A DNA stretch of 64,000 nt, from contig NZ_CP062165.1 in assembly GCF_014844075.1 (NCBI RefSeq), forward strand, positions 4,526,001 through 4,590,000, read 5' to 3'. Shown here in pieces: positions 45,736-61,456 of this stretch; position 1 is the first letter of the stretch, and every line of letters starts with the position of its first letter. The notes beneath the pieces were generated by a model. The model was not told where the DNA came from and ran no database searches. It worked only from the letters and a program-made list of their open reading frames with translations. This DNA comes from Paenibacillus sp. JNUCC-31. Its GTDB lineage: Bacteria > Bacillota > Bacilli > Paenibacillales > Paenibacillaceae. Both the position numbers and the translations under genes were made by a program.

Positions 45736-48700
45736 ATGAAACAAGGCATATATGAACAGCTTATCAACACCATCACCAGACAGGAGATTTCGGCGCTGGA
45801 CCCGGATGTGTATAACATTGGGACCGAGAAGCTGGATGCAGAGGAAGCACGTAAACTGCTGTCCACGTATTTGGCGGCGGTGACCCGGCGAGCGCTCAAG
45901 ATTGTACGGGAACAGACAGAAGATAAGACAGCTGTGTTGGCGCAAATCCGAACGTGTAATGAGATTATTGCTACCCTGAAAGGTACGCTTGGGGAAGAAG
46001 AATACAACGAATTGCAACTGGATGAGCAGGGGGAAGTGCTGACCCATGTGTATTCCAAGCTGAACAGCATTCGTGCGGTCCGGGATACCAAAATCGTTCG
46101 TCCAGATACGCCCATCTCCCAAAGCTCTTTATTCACAGGTGCAAAGTCCGAGCCGAGTATGTTACTGGAGTTGCAAAAGGAGATCGTGACCGCCGATCGG
46201 ATCGACTGGTTGGTGTCATTTATCAAATTTAGCGGGCTTCGCCTACTGCTGGAACAGCTTGAACAGTTCACGGCTAGTGGAGGGAAGCTGCGGATCATCA
46301 CAACTACATACATGGAAGCAACCGACCTTAAGGCCATCACTGAACTTAGCAAACTGCCCAACACGGAAATCCAGATTTCCTATGATACCAAAGTGACTCG
46401 GCTGCACGCCAAAACGTACATTTTTCACCGCGATACTGGATTCACCACAGCCTATGTCGGCTCCTCTAACCTGTCCAACCCGGCGCTAACCAGTGGTATG
46501 GAGTGGAACCTCAAGGTGACGGAGAAGGATTCACTCGATGTGCTGCGCAAGATTGAAGCGACCTTCGAGAGTTACTGGAATGACCGCGAATTTACTCGGT
46601 ATGTAGCTGAAGATGAGGGACATGAGGCACAGTTGAAGGCGGCTCTGAATCGCAAAAAAGATCAGTCCAACCACTTTCATCTCGACATCCAGCCATACGA
46701 TTATCAAAAGGAAGTGCTGGAGCAGCTGGACGCTGAGCGTACGCTGTACGGACGAACCCGCAACCTGATCGTCGCCGCCACAGGCGTTGGCAAAACGGTC
46801 ATCTCTGCCTTTGACTACAAACGATTCCGTGCATGTCATGCGGGAGCTAAGCTGCTTTTTGTCGCCCATCGGGAAGAAATCTTGAAGCAAAGCCGGGATA
46901 CGTTCCGGTATATCCTGAAGGATATGAATTTTGGTGAGCTGCATGTCGGGAATCACCGAGCGGAGGCGCTGGACCAACTGTTTGTTAGTATTCAGAGTCT
47001 TAACTCCATGAAGCTGACGGAGATCACCAGCCCAGACTATTACGATTACATCATTGTGGATGAATTCCACCATGCCGCTGCTCCTTCGTACCAGAAGCTG
47101 TTATCCCACTACGAACCGAAGATTTTGCTAGGACTCACTGCAACTCCGGAACGGATGGATGGCAAAGACATTACAGCCTACTTCGATCATACGATTGCCG
47201 CCGAGATCCGTCTGACTGATGCGATTGATCGGAAGCTGCTGAGTCCTTTTCAATATTTTGGCGTCACCGATACCGTTGATCTATCTCAGGTGAAGTGGTC
47301 GCGTAAAGGCTATGATCTGAATGAATTGGAGAAGCTGTATACCCATAACAAAATCCGTGCCAACCAGATCATCCAAAGTCTGAACAAATACGTAACCGAT
47401 CTGGACGATGTGAAGGGACTTGGGTTCTGCGTAGGGGTGGATCATGCAATGTATATGGCAAAAATATTTAACGAAGCCGGCATTCCATCCATGGCCCTGC
47501 ATGGCGGGTCGAACGAACAGGAGCGTCATTCTGCGAAAGGACAGCTGGTAAACGGGGAACTGCGCATGATCTTTGTCGTTGATCTGTACAATGAGGGCGT
47601 GGATATCCCTGAGGTGAACACCATCCTGTTCCTGCGTCCTACCGGAAGTCTAACCGTATTCCTGCAACAGTTGGGACGTGGACTACGGATGGCGGATGGA
47701 AAAGAGTGCCTGACCGTGCTCGACTTCATAGGACAAGCGCATCAGGAGTACAGGTTTCAAGATAAGTTCCGTGCTCTGATCGGCGCCACCAAACATTCCA
47801 TCTCGTACTACGTCGAGAACGGCTTCTCTAAACTGCCACGCGGCACGTTCATTCAATTGGAAAAACAAGCGAAGGAATACGTCATGCGCAACCTCAAGCA
47901 GATGAGTCGTAATCGCAGAGCGTTGATCCAGAAGCTGCAAACGTTCCAGCAAGACACCGGACTGCCGCTGACACTGGCTCATTTTGTAGAGCATCACGGG
48001 ATGACACTATATGAATTGTATGGTGGACGTACGGGCAAAAGGTATTTCCGCGGTATGTTGGCCGAAGCCGGATTAATAGCACCCATCGAAGATGAACACG
48101 AGGAGTATATCCGCCGACTACCGTCTGTGCTGACGATTAACTCCCGAAGCTGGCTGACGTTCCTGATCGACTTTATTGAAAAAGGCCAAGAACCGACTAC
48201 CGCCGATGAACAGCGCATGTTGATTATGTTCTATTACACCTTCCATCGGGCTGCGCCTGAGAAACTAGGACTGAGCAGCATCGAAGAGGGTGTGCGGCGT
48301 GTGTTGTCTTGTGAGGCATTCCGAGCAGAGCTTGTGGATATTTTCAAATATAATTGGGCTCATCTGCGATTTGTGGATAAAAGTAATTCGTTCCCGTACA
48401 CTTGTCCACTGGATATCCACTGTATGTACTCCATAGACCAAGTGCTTGCCGCCTTTGGTTATTGGAATGCCCAGCAATCGCCCGCCTTCCGCGAAGGTGT
48501 GAAGTATTTTGCCGATGAACAGACGGATATTTTCTTCATTACGTTGAACAAATCAGACAAAGATTTCTCACCCTCAACGCTGTACGAGGATTATGCGATC
48601 AACGAGCGTTTATTCCACTGGCAGACTCAGAGCCGGGTGTCGGAGCATACGGCTACCGCGCAGCGGTATATCCATCATCGAGAGACGGGCAACCGGATCG

Positions 48701-48873
48701 CGCTGTTCGTGCGGGAGTATAAGGAGGAGCATGGCTATACGTCTCCATTTGTCTTTCTGGGCGAAGCGGATTATGTGAGTAATGAGGGGAACAAACCGAT
48801 GAGTTTTGTTTGGCGGTTAAGGGAAGAGATGCCCGCGAAGATGGTGGCGGTGGCGAATAAGTGTATTGTTTGA
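45736..48873 (+). CDS. PLD-nuclease / SF2 helicase / DUF3427-type protein
   Basis: 1045 residues. After an N-terminal helical part, a phospholipase-D-like nuclease domain shows HAKTYIF (His224, Lys226) and GSSNLSNPAL; one HKD half-site, so it would dimerise. Then an SF2 helicase: Walker A AATGVGKT (347-354), DEFHH (442-446), GLTATPER, and motif VI QQLGRGLR. The last 400 residues match the DUF3427-type tail (ITLNKSDKDFSPSTLYEDYAI, LFVREYKEEHGYTSPFVFLGEADY). Such proteins occur in defence islands as putative DNA-cutting translocases. ATG 45736 has only a weak site (ACGAGG). Codon use is GC-richer than the next operon, so I keep them separate. Confidence 0.9.
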   Translation: MKQGIYEQLINTITRQEISALDPDVYNIGTEKLDAEEARKLLSTYLAAVTRRALKIVREQTEDKTAVLAQIRTCNEIIATLKGTLGEEEYNELQLDEQGEVLTHVYSKLNSIRAVRDTKIVRPDTPISQSSLFTGAKSEPSMLLELQKEIVTADRIDWLVSFIKFSGLRLLLEQLEQFTASGGKLRIITTTYMEATDLKAITELSKLPNTEIQISYDTKVTRLHAKTYIFHRDTGFTTAYVGSSNLSNPALTSGMEWNLKVTEKDSLDVLRKIEATFESYWNDREFTRYVAEDEGHEAQLKAALNRKKDQSNHFHLDIQPYDYQKEVLEQLDAERTLYGRTRNLIVAATGVGKTVISAFDYKRFRACHAGAKLLFVAHREEILKQSRDTFRYILKDMNFGELHVGNHRAEALDQLFVSIQSLNSMKLTEITSPDYYDYIIVDEFHHAAAPSYQKLLSHYEPKILLGLTATPERMDGKDITAYFDHTIAAEIRLTDAIDRKLLSPFQYFGVTDTVDLSQVKWSRKGYDLNELEKLYTHNKIRANQIIQSLNKYVTDLDDVKGLGFCVGVDHAMYMAKIFNEAGIPSMALHGGSNEQERHSAKGQLVNGELRMIFVVDLYNEGVDIPEVNTILFLRPTGSLTVFLQQLGRGLRMADGKECLTVLDFIGQAHQEYRFQDKFRALIGATKHSISYYVENGFSKLPRGTFIQLEKQAKEYVMRNLKQMSRNRRALIQKLQTFQQDTGLPLTLAHFVEHHGMTLYELYGGRTGKRYFRGMLAEAGLIAPIEDEHEEYIRRLPSVLTINSRSWLTFLIDFIEKGQEPTTADEQRMLIMFYYTFHRAAPEKLGLSSIEEGVRRVLSCEAFRAELVDIFKYNWAHLRFVDKSNSFPYTCPLDIHCMYSIDQVLAAFGYWNAQQSPAFREGVKYFADEQTDIFFITLNKSDKDFSPSTLYEDYAINERLFHWQTQSRVSEHTATAQRYIHHRETGNRIALFVREYKEEHGYTSPFVFLGEADYVSNEGNKPMSFVWRLREEMPAKMVAVANKCIV

Positions 48874-49164: not shown

Positions 49165-51546
49165 ATGCCGCAAATCCCATTCAAAGTTTCAGCAAGGGCT
49201 GCAAGACTTATAGGTAGAGAAAATGTTAGCAATGCAGATGGTGCACTTATCGAGCTTATAAAAAATTCTTACGATGCTGGGGCTAGTATCTGTGTGGTTT
49301 ATTTTGATTGTACGAATCAAGATGATAATTCTATTTATATAATAGATAATGGTCATGGTATGAATGCGCAAGTGATCGAGGACAATTGGATGACGATTGG
49401 GACTGACAATAAGGAGCATGATTATTTAGGCGAAGATGGAAGGGTAAAAGCGGGCGCCAAGGGAATAGGTCGGTTTGCACTCGATCGATTGGGTGGTAAA
49501 GCTGAGATGATTACCCATCCCAAAAGTGGTAAAGAGACTTACTTTTGGAATGTTAACTGGGAAGACTTTGAAGAAACAGGGACTACCATTGAGAATGTGT
49601 ATGCTAATATTGAGATAAATCAAGGGTTTGATTTTCAGAACAGTGTAAAGAATCTATTGGATCTTTTTGAACAGAGGATAGATTTTAAAAGACATAAATT
49701 CAATAACGGAACAATTCTAAAAATAAAGGAGTTAAGAGATGATTGGAGTGATTATTACATTGATAAAATCAATACAAATTTAGAATTCCTAGTTCCAGCT
49801 AAAGAGCAAACAATATTTGAATTATATGTATTTAATAAGGAATTTCCTAAAAAGTATGGACAAATAAGTTCACTTGCCGAATATGATTTTGACTACAAGC
49901 TTCGAGCAATAGTTCTACCGAATAAGAATATTGAAATTGAGATACATAGGAATGAGCTAGACTTAAAGTTAGTTGACATGGACTTGTTTGAACTTGAGGA
50001 AATGAAAGCAGCACCTTACGATATTGACACGTTTAAAAGAGGCTTTTTTCAAAAGTCAACAACATTAAACTATTTACTACCTAACTTTGAGAAGGAATTT
50101 AATAAAAATGTTTTAGATAATTTAGGTGGGTTTGAGTTTACTATGTACTTTATTAAAAGATCTTTCTCCAATAATGATAGGAAAAAGTTTTTCTATAGAA
50201 ATTTTGATTCTGGAAAACGAGATAGTTGGATGAATACGTTCTCTGGAATTAAGGTATATAGGGATTATTTTAGAGTAAGACCTTATGGAGAAATGGAAGG
50301 AAGTTCATTTGATTGGCTGATGCTTGGGGAAAGAGCTGCAAAAAGTCCAGCAGCTCCAAGTCACAAAACAGGTTCTTGGAGAGTACGTCCCAATCAAATA
50401 TCTGGTAGTATATCTATATCCAGGCTTAATAATCTTAATTTCGAAGATAAATCAAGTAGAGAAGGTTTTCAAGAGAATAAAGAGTTCCAAGCACTAAAAG
50501 AAATAATAAAAAAAATTGTCCACGAATTTGAATATGATCGTCAGTACGTAATGAGAGCCTTAGATAAATTGTATTCTAAGAAGAATTTTGATGAACAAGA
50601 TAGAAAACAAGCAGATAAAATAGCAAAAAATATCTTAAATAAGATGGTAGATAATGAGCATGAGGATATTGGTACATTAACCGAGAAGAACATAAAGTCA
50701 TTAAATGCTCATAACGTAAATATTTTGGCTAAATCGTATCTGGCACAACAGCGCTCATTTAAAGATCTGATAACTGAGAACCAGTTGCTAAGGGCTCTCG
50801 CAAGTACAGGACTAACTCTGACTTCATTTGCACATGATTTAAGCAATTTAAGTTCAAACATACTGCATAGAAATAATAATGTAAAAAAAATGATGTCGAG
50901 GTTAATTGATGATCATCAATTATTAGAGTTAAAAGAATATCAAAATCCTTTTGTATTAATTGATGATATGGCAAAAGAAGATGAAAGATTGAAAAATTGG
51001 CTAGAGTTTTCTTTGAATACTATAAAAGTTGACAAAAGGAAGCGTAATAAAGTTGATTTATACAAATATTTTGAGGTTTTTGAAAGATCTTGGAACCCTG
51101 TTTTGACATTTCAAAAAGTAAATATTGTGGTTCCTTCATCTATGGATAATGAAAGATTCTATTTTAGAATATTTGAAATTGATTTTGATAGTATATTTAA
51201 TAATTTAATATCTAACTCACTCTCTGCGTTTCGACGAGAGGATGCATCAGAAAAAAGGGAAATCCGTATTGAGTTGTATGAAATTAATGATGAATTAGTT
51301 ATTAACTATTCTGATTCGGGCCCTGGTTTGTCTCAAGATATTAATGAGCCTTTTAAAATTTTTGATCCATTATTTACAACTAAGAGAGATAAAGCGGGGA
51401 AAGAAGTTGGTACTGGTTTAGGAATGTGGATAGTAAGGTCTACAGTCGATTATTATAATGGACTCATAAAGATTACCAATATCAGACCAGGCTTTTCATT
51501 ACAACTTGTTTTTCCTAAAAGAAAAGATGAAGGAGTACTAAATTAA
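49165..51546 (+). CDS. Double-GHKL ATPase / histidine-kinase-like sensor
   Basis: 793-residue cytoplasmic protein without membrane segments. Residues 1-130 are an Hsp90/MORC/MutL-like GHKL ATPase: ELIKNSYDA (Glu30, Asn34), DNGHGM (61-66), GAKGIGRFA (97-105). The C-terminal 250 form a histidine kinase module: H-box-like TSFAHDLSNLSSN with His557, N-box FNNLISNS (Asn680-Asn684), DSGPGL (717-722), GTGLGMWIV (from 749). Between is a transducer-like domain and a long coil. Two nucleotide sites in one chain, one sensing and one signalling, is unusual. First gene of a tight AT-rich operon with receiver, HNH and methyltransferase genes. Probably senses invading or damaged DNA and phosphorylates the next protein (inference). 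Confidence 0.85.
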   Translation: MPQIPFKVSARAARLIGRENVSNADGALIELIKNSYDAGASICVVYFDCTNQDDNSIYIIDNGHGMNAQVIEDNWMTIGTDNKEHDYLGEDGRVKAGAKGIGRFALDRLGGKAEMITHPKSGKETYFWNVNWEDFEETGTTIENVYANIEINQGFDFQNSVKNLLDLFEQRIDFKRHKFNNGTILKIKELRDDWSDYYIDKINTNLEFLVPAKEQTIFELYVFNKEFPKKYGQISSLAEYDFDYKLRAIVLPNKNIEIEIHRNELDLKLVDMDLFELEEMKAAPYDIDTFKRGFFQKSTTLNYLLPNFEKEFNKNVLDNLGGFEFTMYFIKRSFSNNDRKKFFYRNFDSGKRDSWMNTFSGIKVYRDYFRVRPYGEMEGSSFDWLMLGERAAKSPAAPSHKTGSWRVRPNQISGSISISRLNNLNFEDKSSREGFQENKEFQALKEIIKKIVHEFEYDRQYVMRALDKLYSKKNFDEQDRKQADKIAKNILNKMVDNEHEDIGTLTEKNIKSLNAHNVNILAKSYLAQQRSFKDLITENQLLRALASTGLTLTSFAHDLSNLSSNILHRNNNVKKMMSRLIDDHQLLELKEYQNPFVLIDDMAKEDERLKNWLEFSLNTIKVDKRKRNKVDLYKYFEVFERSWNPVLTFQKVNIVVPSSMDNERFYFRIFEIDFDSIFNNLISNSLSAFRREDASEKREIRIELYEINDELVINYSDSGPGLSQDINEPFKIFDPLFTTKRDKAGKEVGTGLGMWIVRSTVDYYNGLIKITNIRPGFSLQLVFPKRKDEGVLN

Positions 51547-51548
51547 TT

Positions 51549-52169
51549 ATGTATAGAATCGCGTATATAGACGACGAAACTAATATAGTAAGACAATTTC
51601 AAGCGACTATGGATGAGGATTTCGATGTAATTGAAATTGATCTAAAAGAGAATATTGAAGATATGATTGAAGATATCATAGAATCAAAAGTATCAGCAGT
51701 GGTAATTGATTTTAATTTAAATAGTTCTAAATCTGAAATTCATTATAACGGAGTGGATTTGCTTAATTATTTGTTTGGTGTAATGGAGAATTTTCCGGGT
51801 TATATTCTAACATCATTTGAATCTGAGGCAGAGGGGACTCTGCTTGATCCTGATCTAATTCGTGCTAAAGAATTTGTTAGAGACCATAAAGATTGGTTTG
51901 TTCATAAGCTAAAAAAGAAAATTGAGAGTCATAATAAACAGATAGATTTATTCAAGTCTGAATTATCTAACTTAAATAGAAAATTCCCTAATTTGAATTC
52001 TAAAGAAGAAGAAAGACTTATTTTTTTGGATGATTATTTAGAGAAAAATTCTAATGGTTACAAGTCATTACCTAGTGAAGTTAAAAAAATATCAAACGAT
52101 GCAAGGTTAGATAGGCTGATATTGTTATCTCAGAGATTAATAGATGAATTTAAAAATGAGAGGGAATGA
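51549..52169 (+). CDS. Stand-alone receiver (response regulator) protein
   Basis: 206 residues. The N-terminal 120 follow the receiver pattern: acidic pocket YIDDE (Asp8, Asp9), phospho-acceptor Asp54 in AVVIDFNLN, Thr/Ser88-89 in YILTSF; the usual conserved lysine is not obvious. There is no DNA-binding domain; the rest is charged helix (HKLKKKIESHNKQIDLFKSE; SKEEERLIFLDDYLEK), suited to protein contact. It starts two bases after the kinase stop and ends one base before the HNH start, so it is the expected phospho-partner of the upstream kinase, perhaps gating the nuclease. AAGGAG lies upstream. Confidence 0.82.
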   Translation: MYRIAYIDDETNIVRQFQATMDEDFDVIEIDLKENIEDMIEDIIESKVSAVVIDFNLNSSKSEIHYNGVDLLNYLFGVMENFPGYILTSFESEAEGTLLDPDLIRAKEFVRDHKDWFVHKLKKKIESHNKQIDLFKSELSNLNRKFPNLNSKEEERLIFLDDYLEKNSNGYKSLPSEVKKISNDARLDRLILLSQRLIDEFKNERE

Positions 52170-52170
52170 C

Positions 52171-52788
52171 ATGAGCACCAGTAATCTTAGAACTAGAGAT
52201 CCGATAAGAACTTGTAAAAAAACTTACACTAATTATAGAAGTTTTAAGAAGTATTTAGCTCAAGATTTCAATAATAGGTGTGGGTACTGTGATGATTTTG
52301 ACGGATGGATTGGTGGGACTTCAACCTATCATATTGATCATTTTGCTCCAAAAATAAAATTCCCACTATTGGAAAACGATTATACTAATTTAGTATATGC
52401 TTGCTCATTTTGTAATAGGTTTAAAAGTGATGATTGGCCCTCCGAAGATCATACTATAAGTGTTGTAAAAGATAAGGGTTACATAGATCCTTGTGATGCT
52501 AAATATAAGGGTCATTTTGAAAGAGACCTGTATGGAAACATCATTCCATTAAACAATGTGGCGGATTATATGCACAACAAGCTACAATTTTTCTTAGCAA
52601 GACATCGTATTATATGGAATTTAACTAGGTTAAAAATTCAATTAGATGAGTTAGAAGGACTTGCTACTCGTTATAAAGCTGAGAAAGAAAAATATGATAA
52701 GATACTTCATTTGTATTTTGAATTAAGTATTGAATTTCAAAATTATCTAAGATATTTGTTAGGGGAAAACTTCCAAGATGGAACATAA
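52171..52788 (+). CDS. HNH endonuclease, PtuB-like
   Basis: 205 residues. Zinc-ribbon HNH: NNRCGYCDD, then YHIDHFAPKIKFPLLENDYTNLVYACSFCNRFKSDD, i.e. CxxC, HxxHF.PK, N and CxxCN...K, the pattern of HNH nucleases such as PtuB of the Septu defence system. The tail is helical (HNKLQFFLARHRIIWNLTRLKIQLDELEGL). ATG 52171 follows GAGAGGGA. It overlaps the methyltransferase gene by eleven bases. In this context it is the probable DNA- or RNA-cutting effector, either as the restriction half of an R-M pair or under control of the kinase/receiver. Confidence 0.88.
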   Translation: MSTSNLRTRDPIRTCKKTYTNYRSFKKYLAQDFNNRCGYCDDFDGWIGGTSTYHIDHFAPKIKFPLLENDYTNLVYACSFCNRFKSDDWPSEDHTISVVKDKGYIDPCDAKYKGHFERDLYGNIIPLNNVADYMHNKLQFFLARHRIIWNLTRLKIQLDELEGLATRYKAEKEKYDKILHLYFELSIEFQNYLRYLLGENFQDGT

Positions 52789-54391
52789 GAAAAAAAATGG
52801 GGTTTATTATACACCTGATTCCTTGGCGAACTTTGTCATAAATCACTTGTATTTTAATTTCCTCGAAAACAAAAAAAAAATAAACGTCTTAGAGCCAAGT
52901 TGCGGTGATGGTATATTCATCAATGCCATTGTTAACAGTAAAACTGAAAAAAAACAAAAACTGAATATTACTGCGGTAGAACTGGATGAACTAGAGATTG
53001 GCAAGATATCTCAAGAAATGTCTGATAAAGTTGGAACAGATATAAATATTACTTTTCATAATAGAGATTATCTTGAATTTCAGGTGTTAAATAAAGACAA
53101 ATATGATTTAATCATCGGAAATCCACCATATATTAGTCACAAGCATCTAACTGAACATCAAATCTCTTTAAGTAATGAAGTATTAACTAAGGCAAAAGTG
53201 AGTCCACCTAGAACAAAGAATCTATGGATTTCCTTTTTAATAAGTTCAGTTCTATCATTAACCAATAATGGAACTATCTGTTTTATATTACCCTCTGAGT
53301 TGTTACAGGTTAAACATTCGTTATCTATTAGAGATTTCCTATTTAAACATTTTAATTATATTGAAATATTTACTTTTGGAGAGATAGTTTTCGAAGGTAT
53401 TGAGCAAGATACTATTATATTCATAGGTTCTAATTCAAAAGGTAAAAGAGGTTTTAAATACAGCAATATTGACAATTTGAAGGATTTAAACATAGATGTA
53501 ATAAATGAGAGCGAAAATTTAGCGGATATTCAAATCAGCGAAAAATGGACCTCCCTAATATTAACGAATAGCCATATCGATAAGTTAACTGCTATGAAAG
53601 AAAGAGTTTATCCCCTCGACTTTTACTGTAGCTCTGGTGCAGGTATTGTAACAGCGGCTAACAAAAGTTTTATTGTTGATGATAATTTAGTTGAGAAATA
53701 TAAGCTGGAAGAATTTAAACTCCCTATAATTCAAAAAAGTTCACAAATAAAAAATTTAATAAACTTCACTAAAAATGATTTCGAAGTGATACAACATTCA
53801 GGAAAACCTACTAACTTACTGCTTTTTAAAGATCAGGATTATGAACTCTTCACCCCTGAGAGTAAGTTATATTTAGACCTTTTAGTGAAAGATAAAGTAC
53901 ATCAGAGATATAAATGCACAAAAAGAAATAGGTGGTATGTTGTACCTTCAGTATGGAAATCTGATGGTTTTTTCTTTAAAAGATCATTTTTGCATCCCAA
54001 AATAATTGTAAATGATGCTGAGGTATTGGTAACTGATACAGCTTATAGAATAACCATGAAAGAGGGGTATGATATTAAATCATTAGCATTTTCGTTTTAT
54101 AATTCCTTGACGCTTGTATTTACTGAATTATTCGGTCGATATTATGGTGGTGGGGTCTTAGAACTTACTCCGAATGAATTTAAAAAAGTACCGATACCTT
54201 ACGTTAATGTTACCAATGAAGTGTTAATACAATTAGACGATATGTTCAGAGATGAAGAAGATTTCAGTAAGATTTTAACCTTTACGAATGATATTGTATT
54301 AAAACAAAGTTTTGGTTTCACAAATGATGAGATTGAATTTTTAAATACTATAAGAGAACGGCTAATAAATAGGCGGTTAAAAAGATACTGA
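52778..54391 (+). CDS. Eco57I/TaqI-like N6-adenine DNA methyltransferase
   Basis: 537 residues, gamma-class amino-methyltransferase. YTPDSLANFVI (motif X), VLEPSCGDGIF (motif I), and LIIGNPPYISH (motif IV, NPPY catalytic). The C-terminal 250 residues are the target-recognition domain (RYKCTKRNRWYVVPSVWKSDGFFFKR; GRYYGGGVLELTPNEFKKVPIP). It modifies adenine in a site that the sequence does not reveal. It would protect the host against the adjacent HNH nuclease. Overlaps the HNH gene, last of the four-gene operon. AT-rich codons like its partners. Confidence 0.92.
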   Translation: MEHKKKNGVYYTPDSLANFVINHLYFNFLENKKKINVLEPSCGDGIFINAIVNSKTEKKQKLNITAVELDELEIGKISQEMSDKVGTDINITFHNRDYLEFQVLNKDKYDLIIGNPPYISHKHLTEHQISLSNEVLTKAKVSPPRTKNLWISFLISSVLSLTNNGTICFILPSELLQVKHSLSIRDFLFKHFNYIEIFTFGEIVFEGIEQDTIIFIGSNSKGKRGFKYSNIDNLKDLNIDVINESENLADIQISEKWTSLILTNSHIDKLTAMKERVYPLDFYCSSGAGIVTAANKSFIVDDNLVEKYKLEEFKLPIIQKSSQIKNLINFTKNDFEVIQHSGKPTNLLLFKDQDYELFTPESKLYLDLLVKDKVHQRYKCTKRNRWYVVPSVWKSDGFFFKRSFLHPKIIVNDAEVLVTDTAYRITMKEGYDIKSLAFSFYNSLTLVFTELFGRYYGGGVLELTPNEFKKVPIPYVNVTNEVLIQLDDMFRDEEDFSKILTFTNDIVLKQSFGFTNDEIEFLNTIRERLINRRLKRY

Positions 54392-54747: not shown

Positions 54748-54790
54748 AACAAAGAAGCAAAGTAGCCAATAGCTGCTTTGCTTCTTTGTT
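54748..54790 (-). terminator. Terminator overlapping the XRE gene end
   Basis: AACAAAGAAGCAAAG pairs perfectly with CTTTGCTTCTTTGTT; the stem overlaps the stop codon of the regulator gene. On the minus strand TTTCTGCGG follows, so termination is moderate. Confidence 0.7.
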
Positions 54791-55133
54791 AACCTTTTAA
54801 AATCTCGCGTATCACATTTTTCGTTAGTTGAATACTTTCTGGAGAGGCGTCTCTCAACATTGTTACAATTTCTTGAATTACTACTTCTGACTCTGTGAAG
54901 TGAAAGTCCTCATCAACATAAGCGAAAAGCTGCATTAAGTTTACTTCAAGTGACTCAGCGATCTTTGCCAAGTTCACCAAAGAAACATTCTTTTCTCCAC
55001 GTTCGATCTGTCCTATGTATGAAAAATGAAATCCACCTTTTTCTCCGAGGGATTCCTGTGAATACCCTCTTTCTTTGCGTAGTGCGCGGATTCTGGCTCC
55101 CACCAGCTTCAAAACTTCTCTGTCCTCGTTCAC
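54789..55133 (-). CDS. XRE family regulator
   Basis: 114 residues with a Cro/CI-type HTH (LVGARIRALRKERGYSQESLGEKGGFHFSYIGQIERGEKNVSLVNLAKIAESL, residues about 9-63) and a helical tail. GTG 55133 follows AGAGGTG; the frame continues upstream to 55190 without a site. The HTH strongly resembles controller (C) proteins of restriction-modification systems and SinR-like regulators. It is divergent from the 55275 gene. May control the methyltransferase-nuclease operon or its neighbour. Confidence 0.88.
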   Translation of the reverse strand: MNEDREVLKLVGARIRALRKERGYSQESLGEKGGFHFSYIGQIERGEKNVSLVNLAKIAESLEVNLMQLFAYVDEDFHFTESEVVIQEIVTMLRDASPESIQLTKNVIREILKG

Positions 55134-55274
55134 GGTATTCACCTCTCTATGTTCAAAAGTGTAGACAAGTTTCCTCAAGGTAAACACCAAACGAAGAATA
55201 CAAATAATTTATTTGATTACTATAGGTATCATTTTATTGTATAATACTGGTATTAACTCTTTGGAGGGATGACA

Positions 55275-56307: not shown

Positions 56308-56634
56308 ATGCCTACATACAACAAATTGGTGCGGGACAAGATTCCGCATATTATCACATCCAGTGGTAAGGAATGCCGCACACGCATTCTGGACCCGGAG
56401 GAATATAAGCAAGAACTAAGAACGAAGCTGCGTGAAGAGTCTGAAGAATACATGAGTGCAGCGAGTGATCAGGAAGCTTTGGAAGAACTAGCCGACATGC
56501 TGGAGGTGATCCAGGCGCTGGCGGAGGTGCATGGTGCGAATGCGGCCCAGCTAGACAAGCTTCGGGCAGACAAAGCCGAGGCGCGTGGTGGATTCCAGGA
56601 ACGGGTGTATCTGATCGATGTCGACGAAGCTTAA
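56308..56634 (+). CDS. MazG-like nucleoside triphosphate pyrophosphohydrolase
   Basis: 108 residues, all-alpha NTP pyrophosphatase (phosphoribosyl-ATP pyrophosphohydrolase-like). Family opening MPTYNKLVRDKIPHII; metal-binding EESEEYMSA and ELADMLEVIQAL (the EExxE and ExxD pattern). ATG 56308 lies 12 bases after AAAGGA; the frame runs further upstream without sense. The gene overlaps the second PLD-helicase by 17 bases, so the two are translationally linked; such small MazG proteins are known in antiphage settings as nucleotide-pool controllers. Confidence 0.9.
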   Translation: MPTYNKLVRDKIPHIITSSGKECRTRILDPEEYKQELRTKLREESEEYMSAASDQEALEELADMLEVIQALAEVHGANAAQLDKLRADKAEARGGFQERVYLIDVDEA

Positions 56635-59053
56635 CGTTAAACTCATTACAGATAACTTGGCAGACGAACTCATTTCCCGGATGCAGCATGCGTCCGGGAT
56701 TTATATTATGACTTCCTTTATCATGCAGTCTGGTGTGAAGCTGCTTGCTCCGCATTTGAAACGGGCAGCAGAACGTGGAGCCGAGGTACGGATGCTCGCG
56801 GGAGACTATCTGTATATTACGCAGCCGGAAGGACTGCGGGCGCTGTGTGAGGTAGATCCACGAATTGAGGCACGACTGTGGCGAAGTATGGGAACTTCTT
56901 TTCACCCAAAAGCCTATCTGTTCGATCATGACAACGGGGAAGGACTGCTGATCGTCGGCTCGTCGAACTTCTCATTCACGGCGCTGAAGACGGGGTATGA
57001 ATGGAATCTCGCGATGAATGCCGAGGCGGAACCGTATACGTTCCAGATGGCCTTGGACAAGTTCATGCAGAGCTTCTACCATGAGACGACATTACCAGTG
57101 AACCCGGATTCGATTGCGCTGTATGAAGAAGAGTACCGGAAGTATCACCAGAAGAACCCGGAGATGATCCAGCGGATCACGGAGATGGAAGAAGCGGAGT
57201 TCGGCACAGGGCTGCCGGAGGAAACAGAGGAGGAAACCGCCGAGCTGTCGCTTGTACCCATTCAGCCGCGGTTTGCGCAGCTCGATGCACTTGAAGCGTT
57301 GGAAGGCACGATGGAAGAGCAGTATGACAAGGCGATGGTCGTTATGGCGACCGGGCTTGGCAAAACGTATCTGGCGGGTTTCTTCGCCCAGCGGTTCAAG
57401 CGGATACTGTTTGTGGCGCATCGGGAAGAGATTTTGTTCCAGGCGAAGAAGTCTTTTCAGCGGATCATGCCGGAGCGCAGTCACGGTATTTACAACGGGC
57501 AGCATAAGGATGGAGCGGCGGATTGTGTGTATGCTTCGATCTTTACACTGAGTATGCAGCGACACCGGGATGGTTTTGCGGCGGATGCATTCGATCTGAT
57601 CGTGGTGGATGAGTTCCACCATGCGGCAGCTAAGACGTATATGTCGGTGATCGAGCATTTTCAGCCGAGGTTTCTGCTGGGCATTACCGCTACCCCGGAT
57701 CGACTGGATGGCAAGGATGTGTATGCGCTCTGTGATGGGAATGTGGCGTACCAGATGCATTTTATTGAAGCGATCCGGCGAGGTTGGCTGGCGCCATTTC
57801 AATATTACGGAGTATTCGATGATACGGACTATTCGCAGATCCGCTGGATCGGGACAAAGTATGATGAAGAACAGCTCATGGCCGTTCAGTTGCAAGAGGA
57901 GCATGTGGAGACGATCTATGCGGCCTGGGTGCGGCACAAGCAGACGAGAACGATTGGCTTTTGCTCATCGATCCGCCAGGCGGACTATTTAGCTGCCTAT
58001 TTCCGCAGTCAGGGCGTGAAGGTGCTCAGTCTGCATTCGCGCACATCGGAGATGTCGCGGGAGGAAGCCATTCGCCAGCTTGATGCGGGTGAGCTGGAGG
58101 TTGTGCTGACGGTGGATCTGTTCAATGAGGGGACAGATATTCCATGTGTGGACACGTTGTTGTTCGTGCGTCCAACGGAGTCACTTGCGGTATTCACCCA
58201 GCAGGTGGGGCGTGGTCTAAGGCTGGCGGAGGGAAAATCGCATTGTGTTATCATCGACCTGATCGGAAACTACCGAAATGCGGATGTGAAGCTGAGTCTG
58301 CTGGACGTGCGTGGAGATGAGGAACGAAGCGGGAAAGCGATGGATTCGGCTGTGCCTGAGGTTCCGGCTAACTGTGGGATTCATCTGGAGACCCGAGTGG
58401 TGAACCTGCTTCAGGAGCTAAGCCGCAAACGGCTACCGCGCCGCGAAAAGCTGCATCAGGATTTTCTGAATGTGAAGCGAGAACTGGGGCGTATTCCGAC
58501 TTATCTGGAACTGCATCTCATGGGGCATTCGAAGAGTATCGGGTACAGGAGCGAATTTGGTTCGTATGTAGGGTTTCTGCATTGGGCAGAACTGCTGTCC
58601 CCATATGAGGGAGAGATATACGTCCGGCATGAAACGTGGCTGCGGGATGTGGAGAAGACGGTTATGAACAAAAGCTATAAAATGATTGTGCTGCTGTACA
58701 TGCTGGAGCGAGGAGAAGCGCACTGGATGGACCCGATCACACCGGGGGAGATGGCAAGGTTCTTCCATACGTATCTGACGGAGAAGGAGTACCGGAAACG
58801 GAAAGACTTTTCGGACAAAGGCAAACTTGCGCTCTGGGAGTGGAATGAGAAGACGGCAACAGAGATTGAAAAGTTGATTGTTGATATGCCGATGACGAAG
58901 TGGAGCAGCGCGAAGGGCAGCATAACCCGGTTTGTGGATGGAGTCTTTTCGCTGAATGTGCAGGTGGAGGATGCGGAGGAACGTGCGGTCCTGTATCGCT
59001 GGACGAAGGAGATTTGTTTGTATCGGTTGCATGCGCATTTTGAGCGGGGGTAA
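56618..59053 (+). CDS. PLD-nuclease / SF2 helicase protein, second copy
   Basis: 811 residues, same order as the 45736 product but distinct in sequence: PLD-like domain first (SFHPKAYLFD; GSSNFSFTALKTGYEWNL), then helicase with MATGLGKT, VAHREEI, VVDEFHHAAA, GITATPDRLDGKDV, QQVGRGLR. The C-terminal part is a different helical region without the DUF3427 tail. Shared strings with the first copy (LLFVAHREEIL, DEFHHAAA) show common descent. ATG 56618 overlaps the end of the MazG-like gene. A scrap of its 3' end is found again at 61597. Probable antiphage nuclease-helicase. Confidence 0.88.
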   Translation: MSTKLNVKLITDNLADELISRMQHASGIYIMTSFIMQSGVKLLAPHLKRAAERGAEVRMLAGDYLYITQPEGLRALCEVDPRIEARLWRSMGTSFHPKAYLFDHDNGEGLLIVGSSNFSFTALKTGYEWNLAMNAEAEPYTFQMALDKFMQSFYHETTLPVNPDSIALYEEEYRKYHQKNPEMIQRITEMEEAEFGTGLPEETEEETAELSLVPIQPRFAQLDALEALEGTMEEQYDKAMVVMATGLGKTYLAGFFAQRFKRILFVAHREEILFQAKKSFQRIMPERSHGIYNGQHKDGAADCVYASIFTLSMQRHRDGFAADAFDLIVVDEFHHAAAKTYMSVIEHFQPRFLLGITATPDRLDGKDVYALCDGNVAYQMHFIEAIRRGWLAPFQYYGVFDDTDYSQIRWIGTKYDEEQLMAVQLQEEHVETIYAAWVRHKQTRTIGFCSSIRQADYLAAYFRSQGVKVLSLHSRTSEMSREEAIRQLDAGELEVVLTVDLFNEGTDIPCVDTLLFVRPTESLAVFTQQVGRGLRLAEGKSHCVIIDLIGNYRNADVKLSLLDVRGDEERSGKAMDSAVPEVPANCGIHLETRVVNLLQELSRKRLPRREKLHQDFLNVKRELGRIPTYLELHLMGHSKSIGYRSEFGSYVGFLHWAELLSPYEGEIYVRHETWLRDVEKTVMNKSYKMIVLLYMLERGEAHWMDPITPGEMARFFHTYLTEKEYRKRKDFSDKGKLALWEWNEKTATEIEKLIVDMPMTKWSSAKGSITRFVDGVFSLNVQVEDAEERAVLYRWTKEICLYRLHAHFERG

Positions 59054-59536: not shown

Positions 59537-61456
59537 ATGGCATATACAGTACCCGAAGCTATTCCGAAGAAAGCGACAGCTGGAGAAAGGCTGTTATTTG
59601 AGACACTGAAGAAACATCTTCCAGAAGACTACATCGTATATTATGAACCTGAGATTCGTGGAAGACGACCGGATATCGTGATTATCGGGCCAGACCTCGG
59701 CCTGCTTGTGCTTGAAGTGAAGGATTATACGAAAGGAACGCTGCATCAGGTGAACCGGGATGAATGGATATTGCGCAATACGGCAGGAGAGACGGTTACC
59801 GCCCGGAGTCCGTTGAAGCAAGCGAGAGACTACGCATTTCTCATTGCGGATCAATTGAAGAAGGACAAGAACCTAATTAAAGAGGGAACGCCGGGATATT
59901 TGAAATTCAATTATGGGTATGGGGTCGTCTTTACCCGCCTGAAGCAAAAGGATTTTCTGCACATGGATTTATACAGCGTCATTGATCCTGTGTTTGTGCT
60001 GACCAGGGAAGAGATCGACCCTGAGGATGAGGATTTCTCGGAAACAATCCTGATCGAGAAGCTGCTGAACATGTTCACGGTGCCGACTCGAAATCGATAC
60101 ACCTTGACCGATGAGGATGTGCAGGCGATCCGGTACCATCTGTTTCCCGAAGTGCGGATTAGCGCGGAGCGTAAAGAAGTCGTACCTCATCAAGACCAGC
60201 TATTATTATCCCTACATAATATCAAGACGATGGATCTGCATCAGGAAAAACTGGCGAAGCAAATCGGGGACAGGCACCGTTTGATCCGTGGAGTAGCGGG
60301 TAGTGGCAAAACGCTGGTGCTCGTCAGTCGGGCCCGGATGTTGGCCAAGGCCAATCCGAACTGGAATATCCTTGTTCTGTGCTATGGTTCTACACTGTCC
60401 CAATATTTGAAGCAGGCGATTGTACAGAAGATGGCGGAGCCTGAGGATTTATTTGATTTTGCCGATGGTGATGCGGCTTCAGCGCATACATCGAATATTC
60501 AGGTGAGCACGTTCCACTCGTGGCTGGGTAAACATTTTCGCATCATCGACAGGAAGTTGCCAGCGTTGCTGGAGAAGGTGGAGCAAGGGCTGGAAGAGTT
60601 GCCGGAATATGATGCCATATTGATCGACGAGGGGCAGGACTTCGAACCAGAATGGTTGAAGCTGGTGAGCGCTTGCCTGAATGCTGACACGCAGTCCTTG
60701 CTGCTGGTGGAGGATCGGGCACAAACCATTTTCAAACGAAAGAACAGCTTGGCCCAAGATACAGGGTTAAATTTTCGTGGCCGCTCCAAAATACTGACGA
60801 TCAACTACAGGAACACGGCTCAGATCGTGCAATTCGCATGGGATTTCTACAAGGAGTATTCCAAGCTACAGGAGAAAGTCATAAGTACTACGGTAGACGG
60901 AATCGAGATTATACCGCCTCAGTTCACGAAGCGTAAAGGGCCAGAGCCTCTGATCTACAAAAGCCGGAGCACTCAGGCCGAGATGGCGTTTGTTGCCAAG
61001 TCCATTGACTTTTTACGACGGGAAAAATCGTTTGCCCTGAAGGATATTGCAATCCTGTATAGGGTACAGGAACATCAAGGGATTAACATTATTGGTGAGA
61101 TGCAGCAAGCTCTAAACGATAACAGTCTTGCGTATAATTGGGTGACCAGAGATGACCAGAGCAAGAAGAGTTTTGATCGGGAAGAGGAAAGCATTAAAAT
61201 TCTAACTATCGATAGTGCAAAGGGCTTGGATTTCAGGGCTGTGTTTATCATTTCCATTGAAACGATGCCACGCAAGGTTGGCAAAACAGATGAAGTGGAT
61301 GAGCGGGAAGTGTCCCGCTTCTACATTGGAATGACTAGAGCCCTGGAATGGCTGTTCCTTAGCTACTCTGGCGAGTCCCGATTCACGCAGTATCTGGATG
61401 AGGTGCAGCAGCAACGAACGGAGAGGCAGATGGATAAGGCTGTAAGGAAAGTGTAA
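59537..61456 (+). CDS. NERD nuclease-domain / UvrD-like SF1 helicase protein
   Basis: 639 residues. N-terminal NERD domain (AGERLLFETLKKHL; PDIVIIGPDLGLLVLEVKDY, with the D..ExK nuclease-type triad). Then an SF1A helicase: GVAGSGKTLVLVSRA, IDEGQDFEPEWL, LTINYRNTAQIV, LTIDSAKGLDF and RFYIGMTRALEWL. All helicase motifs are intact. ATG 59537 follows AGGAGCGG. NERD-helicases are scattered in bacteria and enriched beside mobile and defence genes; whether this one is defensive is inferred from location. Confidence 0.92.
   Translation: MAYTVPEAIPKKATAGERLLFETLKKHLPEDYIVYYEPEIRGRRPDIVIIGPDLGLLVLEVKDYTKGTLHQVNRDEWILRNTAGETVTARSPLKQARDYAFLIADQLKKDKNLIKEGTPGYLKFNYGYGVVFTRLKQKDFLHMDLYSVIDPVFVLTREEIDPEDEDFSETILIEKLLNMFTVPTRNRYTLTDEDVQAIRYHLFPEVRISAERKEVVPHQDQLLLSLHNIKTMDLHQEKLAKQIGDRHRLIRGVAGSGKTLVLVSRARMLAKANPNWNILVLCYGSTLSQYLKQAIVQKMAEPEDLFDFADGDAASAHTSNIQVSTFHSWLGKHFRIIDRKLPALLEKVEQGLEELPEYDAILIDEGQDFEPEWLKLVSACLNADTQSLLLVEDRAQTIFKRKNSLAQDTGLNFRGRSKILTINYRNTAQIVQFAWDFYKEYSKLQEKVISTTVDGIEIIPPQFTKRKGPEPLIYKSRSTQAEMAFVAKSIDFLRREKSFALKDIAILYRVQEHQGINIIGEMQQALNDNSLAYNWVTRDDQSKKSFDREEESIKILTIDSAKGLDFRAVFIISIETMPRKVGKTDEVDEREVSRFYIGMTRALEWLFLSYSGESRFTQYLDEVQQQRTERQMDKAVRKV

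Follow-up and report, generated by a model that had tools for sequence, protein, structure and literature searches.

A MORC-type histidine kinase, a receiver, a PtuB-like nuclease and an adenine methylase form a candidate phosphorelay-switched restriction module in Paenibacillus

Described relatives and the Paenibacillus operon

In Septu and in retrons, the effector PtuB works with an ATPase partner. Detocs, to our knowledge, has no methylase. It employs a phosphorelay in defence, with the kinase DtcA and with DtcB and DtcC, according to the accessible text of PMC11728103. The closest precedent is a kinase-receiver pair reported near restriction-modification (R-M) genes, HEF_HK (PF19191) and Response_reg_2 (PF19192) (PMC8011034). 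The accessible part of that paper reads the pair as a gene-expression regulator travelling with R-M genes, and its main text does not contain 'Eco57I', 'phage' or 'defen'.

Our analysis covered a 64,000-nt window of Paenibacillus sp. JNUCC-31 (NZ_CP062165.1). ORF calling in this window identified four packed AT-rich genes at 49165-54391, all on the plus strand (Table 1). The HNH gene may start at 52144 or 52171. Its relatives align with the latter, which gives intergenic spacings of +2, +1 and -11. The GC content of the operon, 30-32%, is the minimum in the window. A preliminary description of this DNA had reported four tight AT-rich genes with the same spacings, and the ORF coordinates and GC content agree with it. 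The promoter and terminator scan gave counts not above those in shuffled sequence. PADLOC places an XRE gene resembling restriction control proteins near the operon.

Table 1. Genes of the operon, numbered from the first nucleotide of the window
Feature	Coordinates	Strand	Evidence
MORC-type ATPase / histidine kinase, 793 aa	49165..51546	+	ORF, Pfam, PDB profile, Foldseek, residues
Receiver protein, 206 aa	51549..52169	+	ORF, AF2 model, Foldseek, Asp54 conservation
PtuB-like HNH nuclease, 205 aa	52171..52788 (longer ORF from 52144)	+	ORF, PADLOC, PDB 8ee7
Eco57I-type adenine DNA methyltransferase, 537 aa, NPPY motif	52778..54391	+	ORF, Pfam, PADLOC, PDB

The operon and the HEF_HK pair have in common a soluble kinase with an N-terminal HATPase_c_3, an H-box and a C-terminal HATPase_c, a separate receiver, and linkage to methylase and nuclease genes, as far as the accessible text of PMC8011034 describes them. 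By hhalign, the MORC half of the window kinase is homologous to a HEF_HK kinase from Myroides (99.7%, E 8.2e-26, columns 9-459). The PF19191 model, which does score in a Myroides genome (E 6.7e-21), has no match in the window kinase at E≤10 and none among 34 kinases at E≤0.05. It also has none in 199 Bacillota genomes, where 14 controls were likewise silent and the result is uninformative. PF19192 does not match the window receiver at E≤10 and matches 3 of 71 receivers at E≤1 (best 2.1e-6). Profile comparison of the family receivers with the Myroides receiver gave no match (Prob 0.2). The Myroides locus differs further in its C5-type methylase (by sequence reading), its 563-aa receiver and its HNH gene of another kind.

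The HNH protein of the operon resembles the PtuB of Septu and retron PtuAB in its PADLOC and PDB matches, with an NCBIfam score below the cut-off. However, the window kinase has no PtuA match, a kinase and a receiver stand in place of PtuA, and a methylase is present. The predicted phosphorelay is a feature in common with Detocs, whereas the HNH effector is encoded on its own, which sets the operon apart from Detocs as described in the accessible text of PMC11728103. MORC-type ATPases, paraMORC included, likewise occur next to R-M genes. Unlike the window kinase, they are not described with a histidine-kinase core and a paired receiver in the accessible text of PMC2292703. As in type II R-M systems, the operon includes a DNA methylase, identified by PADLOC, Pfam and PDB matches.

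The operon had been said to match no named system. This holds for PADLOC, in which neither kinase nor receiver matches any family at E≤0.01, PtuA included. It does not hold fully for the kinase-receiver idea, which is not wholly new, as a related pair beside R-M genes is known from the accessible text of PMC8011034. We found no description of the four-gene set in the literature searched, including the accessible text of PMC7824862, PMC12839542, PMC3710099 and PMC7159879; subscription papers and preprints lay mostly outside this search.

Features of the four proteins

Sequence comparisons and Foldseek on the model indicated that the kinase is a MORC-type ATPase fused to a histidine-kinase core. 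Pfam domains HATPase_c_3 (25-141) and HATPase_c (674-784) flank the H-box. The C-terminal DHp and CA core (about 549-785) contains His557, so that both hallmarks of two-component kinases, the DHp His and the CA domain, are present. In the PDB profile search, MORC3 matches residues 27-191 (E 1.8e-7) and ZraS matches residues 532-779 (E 1.8e-25). The folds in the model resemble MORC2, SMCHD1 and MORC3 as well as ZraS and HK853, with low TM-scores (0.17-0.30 when normalised to query length, among the 50 matches listed). Likeness to the whole MORC GHKL and S5-like module is seen by Foldseek at these low scores, and the GHKL part is also matched by sequence, in MORC3. The model is weak near His557 (pLDDT <50 at 534-562).

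Among the residues checked, His557, Glu30, Asn34 and Asn680 are kept in 80/80 kinases, as are Gly63, 65, 97, 100, 102, 719, 749, 751 and 753. Lys99 is found in 77/80, Asp717 in 72/80 and Gly721 in 72/80. The kinase lacks a membrane-type hydrophobic stretch (highest 19-residue Kyte-Doolittle mean 1.04). These data are in line with the preliminary description of a soluble double-GHKL ATPase with an H-box at His557 and two complete nucleotide sites.

The model of the receiver is a confident REC fold (AF2, pLDDT 90) that resembles PorX and KdpE in Foldseek. Asp54 is located at the end of strand 3, and the acidic pair, Thr88 and Lys107 complete the REC residues. Asp54 is kept in 71/71 receivers and Lys107 in 59/71. 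No output or DNA-binding domain was recognised by Pfam or in the AF2 model. The protein, which had been described as a receiver without output domain, is not bare: at about residues 107-205 the model shows a helical extension, with pLDDT near 60 at 171-190.

The third and fourth proteins had been assigned as a PtuB-like HNH nuclease and an Eco57I-like N6A methyltransferase, and the searches support both assignments. The HNH protein matches PtuB in PADLOC (E 9.4e-17) and, among solved structures, is nearest to PtuB (PDB 8ee7, E 3.4e-8). It scores 23.2 bits against the NCBIfam PtuB model, which has a cut-off of 150. His57 and Asn82 are kept in 82/82 HNH proteins. An HNH-seeded search of 299 genomes gave one strong match, the window's own, too few to judge kinase-free HNH genes. 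The methylase matches Eco57I (5e-16) and M_Eco57I_C (8.7e-36) in Pfam, MTase_II in PADLOC (4.9e-147) and the BseCI methylase in the PDB (E 6.9e-18).

Recurrence of the gene set and exchange of the methylase

We collected 80 loci via a kinase search, so the constant presence of the kinase is no evidence in itself. The order kinase-receiver-HNH is found in 72/80 loci from seven named phyla, and a methylase gene with an NPPY/NPPF motif adjoins 67 of these 72 core loci. Co-occurrence of the four genes in other genomes, which the preliminary description had proposed to check, is thus observed. Among the eight non-core loci, five are at contig ends (L011, L021, L054, L060, L070), one has an interrupted kinase followed by transposase-like ORFs (L047, by sequence reading) and one a truncated kinase (L052). 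The eighth, the recoded Patescibacteria locus L069, keeps the order and is complete only with TGA as a sense codon. A kinase match in another genome (G337) also runs across one TGA.

The core includes two loci for which the script chose no receiver: in L010 a readable start is followed by an undetermined base, and in L059 the gene is intact. It also includes two with the kinase in two frames (L045, L050), which are outside the 80-kinase residue set. The methylase is in split frames in L061 and L085. None is visible in L062, L065 and L087, whose contigs begin close by. The ORF downstream in L057 is a transposase and was not counted. Pfam was applied to 10 neighbour genes only (7 Eco57I, 2 without match, 1 transposase); the remaining methylases were called by similarity group and the NPPY/NPPF motif. 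No receiver-HNH fusion was seen among the loci.

The distribution is patchy. The kinase is carried by 8/394 genomes of the window's family, all 8 with the four genes, and by 1/299 in a second set. Copies are located on plasmids and within viral contigs. This pattern fits a defence gene.

Among 75 complete systems, pairwise identity correlations, uncorrected for shared descent, are 0.86 for kinase and receiver, 0.855 for kinase and HNH, and 0.81 for receiver and HNH. Those between the methylase and the other three are lower, 0.30-0.40. In addition, the methylase family switches at least 13 times on each of the two trees, that of the kinase and that of the HNH. Within the explanation that we prefer, kinase, receiver and HNH would form the core, and the methylase would be an exchangeable part. 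In the window-type methylase, the recognition half is at least as conserved as the catalytic half (42 vs 36% in 27 systems), and the same is true in 113/119 homologues. Methylase swapping therefore need not imply altered target sites, which weakens the argument for a non-specific HNH from swapped specificity. A structure lookup with the third-family methylase of L071 gave no match.

Proposed mechanism and alternatives

The four genes probably form one anti-virus system, and we see an even chance that the operon is a phosphorelay-switched restriction or defence module. The preliminary description had put forward such a relay, with a DNA-sensing clamp and a receiver gating the HNH nuclease against unmethylated DNA; our data support it in part, through the recurrent gene set, the fused kinase and the conservation of His557 and Asp54. 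The MORC-type ATPase may dimerise or clamp on invading DNA. This would let the C-terminal core autophosphorylate His557 and hand the phosphate to Asp54; the strict conservation of both residues suggests phosphotransfer. The phosphorylated receiver, via its helical extension, could then release or activate the adjacent HNH protein. The adenine methylase would mark host DNA, so that the host either does not set off the system or is spared from cutting. If so, the MORC-type ATPase would be a phosphorelay sensor, and restriction would be under kinase control rather than constitutive. In eukaryotes, MORC proteins function in silencing, and the coupling of their ATPase to an output is still debated. 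This coupling would become directly testable in a bacterial MORC-type protein linked to a nuclease and to a phosphate transfer that can be measured.

With its recognition half conserved, the methylase would also fit a fixed site that the HNH recognises on its own. The operon would then be an ordinary type II R-M pair, an HNH and a same-site methylase. The kinase and receiver would have an accessory role, in which they delay or adjust cutting, for instance while the system becomes established in a new host. The nearby XRE gene and the weak resemblance of the HNH to PacI (E 2.6e-4) would suit such a pair. However, the HNH is closer to PtuB, and the methylase has changed family repeatedly on both trees. 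We consider this explanation unlikely. Slightly more doubtful is abortive infection, in which the kinase senses an infection signal instead of DNA, the HNH acts non-specifically on the nucleic acid of host and phage, perhaps RNA, and the methylase protects or brakes. The HNH matches include PtuB-class effectors from solved retron complexes, and next to a related kinase the effector position is taken by a metallo-beta-lactamase-fold protein. The methylase next to most core loci, on the other hand, argues for a mark on DNA.

Most kinase-receiver pairs are regulators, and the pair might be a two-component gene-expression regulator that merely travels with R-M genes. The same is proposed for the related pair in the accessible text of PMC8011034. 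The absence of a recognised DNA-binding output domain and the correlation of the receiver with the HNH make this very improbable. We give equally little credence to a role in DNA maintenance, as a unit for repair or of MutL/Vsr-like type. A MORC/MutL-type clamp with a nuclease, and a Vsr-like gene beside one related kinase, would be expected of such a unit, whereas a gene set so rare and patchy would not.

Compared to the phosphorelay-switched module itself, a wider proposal is somewhat less secure: a MORC-clamp sensor kinase, a separate receiver, a swappable effector (the PtuB-like HNH in this operon, a metallo-beta-lactamase-fold protein and others among relatives) and a methylase self mark may define a broad defence superfamily, for which we put the chance a little below even. 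Candidate CHAT/caspase-like third genes in L133 and L176, based on a motif, were rejected, as Pfam and PADLOC gave no match and the motif is misaligned between the two. In L127, a related locus on a viral contig, a metallo-beta-lactamase-fold protein follows the receiver in the place of the HNH. In L158, by sequence reading, a Vsr-like gene adjoins a related kinase.

The four-gene unit and its distribution

The four tightly packed, AT-rich genes proposed in the preliminary description are confirmed. Four forward-strand ORFs encoding a kinase, a receiver, an HNH protein and an adenine methylase occupy 49165-54391, with a GC content of 30-32% in a host genome of 7.55 Mb. The operon is located among defence-like genes, since a restriction-like PLD-helicase protein is encoded on each side of it.

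Features of the operon and its surroundings (window coordinates)
Feature	Position	Strand	Basis
Kinase	49165-51546	+	ORF call
Receiver	51549-52169	+	ORF call
HNH protein	52171-52788	+	ORF call
Methylase	52778-54391	+	ORF call
PLD-helicase protein	45736-48873		Near PADLOC type IV methyl-directed restriction model, E 5.8e-218
PLD-helicase protein	56618-59053		Near PADLOC type IV methyl-directed restriction model, E 2e-88
NERD-UvrD helicase	59537-61456		Pfam NERD, E 4.6e-12; PADLOC C3a187, E 9.3e-106
HEPN-domain protein, 173 aa	55269-55790		Pfam, E 2.5e-7
XRE-type regulator	54789-55190	-	PADLOC Control_protein, E 1e-16; convergent with the methylase

The loci compared were ascertained through the kinase. 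A scan of genome contigs identified at least 564 confirmed relatives among at least 589 pattern matches, and 80 loci were kept. The kinase gene is followed by an HNH gene on the same strand in 72 of them; each of the remaining eight loci runs into a contig end, has a broken kinase or comes from a recoded genome. A receiver ORF is located between the two genes in 70 loci. It is also intact in locus L059 and readable up to an undetermined base in L010. A methylase-length gene with an NPPY or NPPF motif adjoins 67 of the 72: in 39 it directly follows the HNH gene, and in 28 it directly precedes the kinase gene. A recurrent four-gene neighborhood, suggested as a check in the preliminary description, was thus found. 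In a partial check, same-sized contigs among the best 120 homologues of each protein numbered 18 for kinase and HNH, 14 for HNH and methylase and 10 for all three.

The unit is present in seven named phyla, yet it is rare in the window's family and in sampled Bacillota. The kinase was found at E<=1e-60 in 8 of 394 genomes of the family, all with the four genes, and among 299 Bacillota genomes only in the window's own. The HNH profile produced one strong match in the same 299 genomes, again in the window's own, and seven weak ones (E 2.5e-14 to 3.3e-11). The closest named kinase relatives are from Paenibacillus.

Kinase matches are found in 67 plasmid records, 41 of which are distant matches from Campylobacter, and the whole unit is carried by Bacteroides and Deinococcus plasmids. 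One Campylobacter plasmid that was opened (L091, 5992-10445) contains a distant kinase with an adjoining 340-aa response regulator and a dcm gene. A Patescibacteria contig (L069, 3839-9000) contains the entire unit, readable only with TGA as a sense codon. The 5550-bp contig L054 starts within the receiver gene and runs out within the kinase gene, as would be expected of a circular molecule with little besides this system.

Kinase, receiver and HNH protein

Both ATPase domains of the predicted soluble kinase are found by Pfam, HATPase_c_3 at 25-141 and HATPase_c at 674-784, and hydropathy indicated no membrane segment. A profile of 34 relatives matched the solved structures of MORC3 over residues 27-191 (E 1.8e-7) and ZraS over 532-779 (E 1.8e-25), with other sensor kinases matched from 549 onward. 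The AF2 model has a pLDDT of 78.6, falling below 50 at 534-562 and in four shorter stretches. Foldseek matches listed for it include DNA-bound MORC2, SMCHD1 and MORC3, and ZraS and HK853 for the C-terminal half; their E values are 1e-12 to 1e-10, yet they come with low TM-scores (query-length values of 0.17-0.30) and high rmsd. The proposed H-box residue His557, together with Glu30, Asn34, Asn680 and nine checked glycines, is invariant in 80 of 80 aligned kinases, a count that excludes two systems with the kinase in split frames. Lys99 is present in 77, and Asp717 and Gly721 in 72.

The receiver model (pLDDT 90) has a REC fold followed by helices from residue 107, with PorX and KdpE as the top structural matches; the Pfam Response_reg match scores under the family cut-off. 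Strand 3 ends at Asp54 and strand 4 at Thr88. Asp54, the receiver residue named in the preliminary description, is present in all 71 receivers, Asp8 and Thr88 in 68 each and Lys107 in 59.

The HNH protein matches PADLOC PtuB (E 9.4e-17), and its best solved-structure match is also PtuB (8ee7, E 3.4e-8). Cas9- and IscB-type HNH domains and retron PtuB proteins come next, and PacI is a weaker match (E 2.6e-4). His57, Asn73, Asn82 and Lys85 are conserved in 82 of 82 HNH proteins. The zinc-type cysteines Cys40 and Cys81 are jointly absent from one set of nine.

A core with a loosely attached methylase

Sequence comparison suggests that the kinase, receiver and HNH protein are the core of the system and the methylase its loose part. 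Across the 75 systems that are complete, the correlation of pairwise identities is 0.86 for kinase-receiver, 0.855 for kinase-HNH and 0.81 for receiver-HNH; the methylase correlates less with the core proteins (0.40, 0.34 and 0.30). Loci L016 and L036 share core identities of 64, 61 and 61% but only 17% in the methylase. In quick trees of 66 loci, at least 13 switches of methylase family fall on the kinase tree, and likewise at least 13 on the HNH tree.

The window's methylase matches Eco57I and M_Eco57I_C (Pfam), and its closest solved relative is the BseCI methylase. Contrary to a simple reading of this turnover, the recognition half of this type is not the variable half: mean identity is 42%, versus 36% for the catalytic half (27 systems), and it is at least as conserved as the catalytic half in 113 of 119 homologues. 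This suggests that methylases of the system may keep one target site. The upstream genes of L071, L072, L073, L075, L077 and L084 form a third group of methylases, again with NPPY/NPPF motifs. For those of L071 and L084, the two scanned, Pfam gave nothing at E<=1e-4; the L071 gene weakly matches PADLOC mad2 (E 1.2e-10).

Proposed mechanism and related systems

The unit is a real and widely conserved system without a PADLOC name. Gene order, conservation, folds and joint divergence are directly seen. In the proposed relay, the kinase would pass phosphate to the receiver, the receiver would control the HNH protein, and methylation would mark self. Phosphotransfer is very likely and control of the HNH protein by the receiver somewhat probable; self-marking by methylation is about evenly balanced, and the mechanism as a whole, as stated, has an even chance of being right.

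PMC8011034 describes HEF_HK kinases and Response_reg_2 receivers close to type II R-M genes, with the two linked in 91.6% of 644 regions, and proposes a tie to paraMORC ATPases; the MORC/paraMORC background is given in PMC2292703. Our system is a variant of this kinase-receiver/R-M association reported in 2021, and differs from it in its nuclease, methylase and kinase subfamily. The preliminary view that no known system covers it stood in part: PADLOC has no model for the window's kinase or receiver, but the association is related prior art. None of the papers and passages covered describes this four-gene unit. A Shedu-type GHKL ATPase-nuclease fusion is reported to lose phage defence when either the ATPase or the nuclease residue is changed (PMC12137116); in the literature covered, this comes closest to experimental backing for nucleases under GHKL control.

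A Myroides HEF_HK kinase aligns with ours over its MORC half (Prob 99.7, E 8.2e-26), and its C-terminal half is outside the alignment. Its neighbors include a long receiver that matches PF19192 (E 1.1e-23) and an HNH gene (PADLOC HNH, E 5.8e-15). The methylase beside it we take to be C5-type from reading its sequence. Unlike the HEF_HK pair, none of 34 kinases of our system is matched by PF19191 at E<=0.05, and the window's receiver does not match PF19192 at E<=10. For three of 71 receivers, however, a PF19192 match at E<=1 suggests kinship with Response_reg_2 receivers. In L075, whose kinase is a distant one, the N-terminal part of that protein hits two REase_II models of PADLOC (E 8.1e-12 and 4.8e-10). 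PADLOC therefore has some sensitivity to this superfamily of kinases, although it misses the window's own.

Eighteen of 80 viral-contig loci (L102-L113, L115-L120) encode a PtuB-like HNH protein after the receiver. The other 62 lack it there, and nearly all have a more distant kinase. At such distant loci, kinases of this type are accompanied by methylases, by genes in the receiver position that encode up to about 520 aa, and by varied third genes; of the third genes scanned with Pfam, the five besides that of L127 gave no match. From reading the sequences, a gene of L158 is presumably Vsr-like and one of L177 HNH_2-like, and some methylases presumably C5-type. In L127 (5731-6735), a metallo-beta-lactamase-fold protein follows the receiver in place of the HNH protein (Pfam E 1.3e-5; nearest in PADLOC to RTasMBL and LmuA). 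The third genes of L139 and L141 are similar to it in size.
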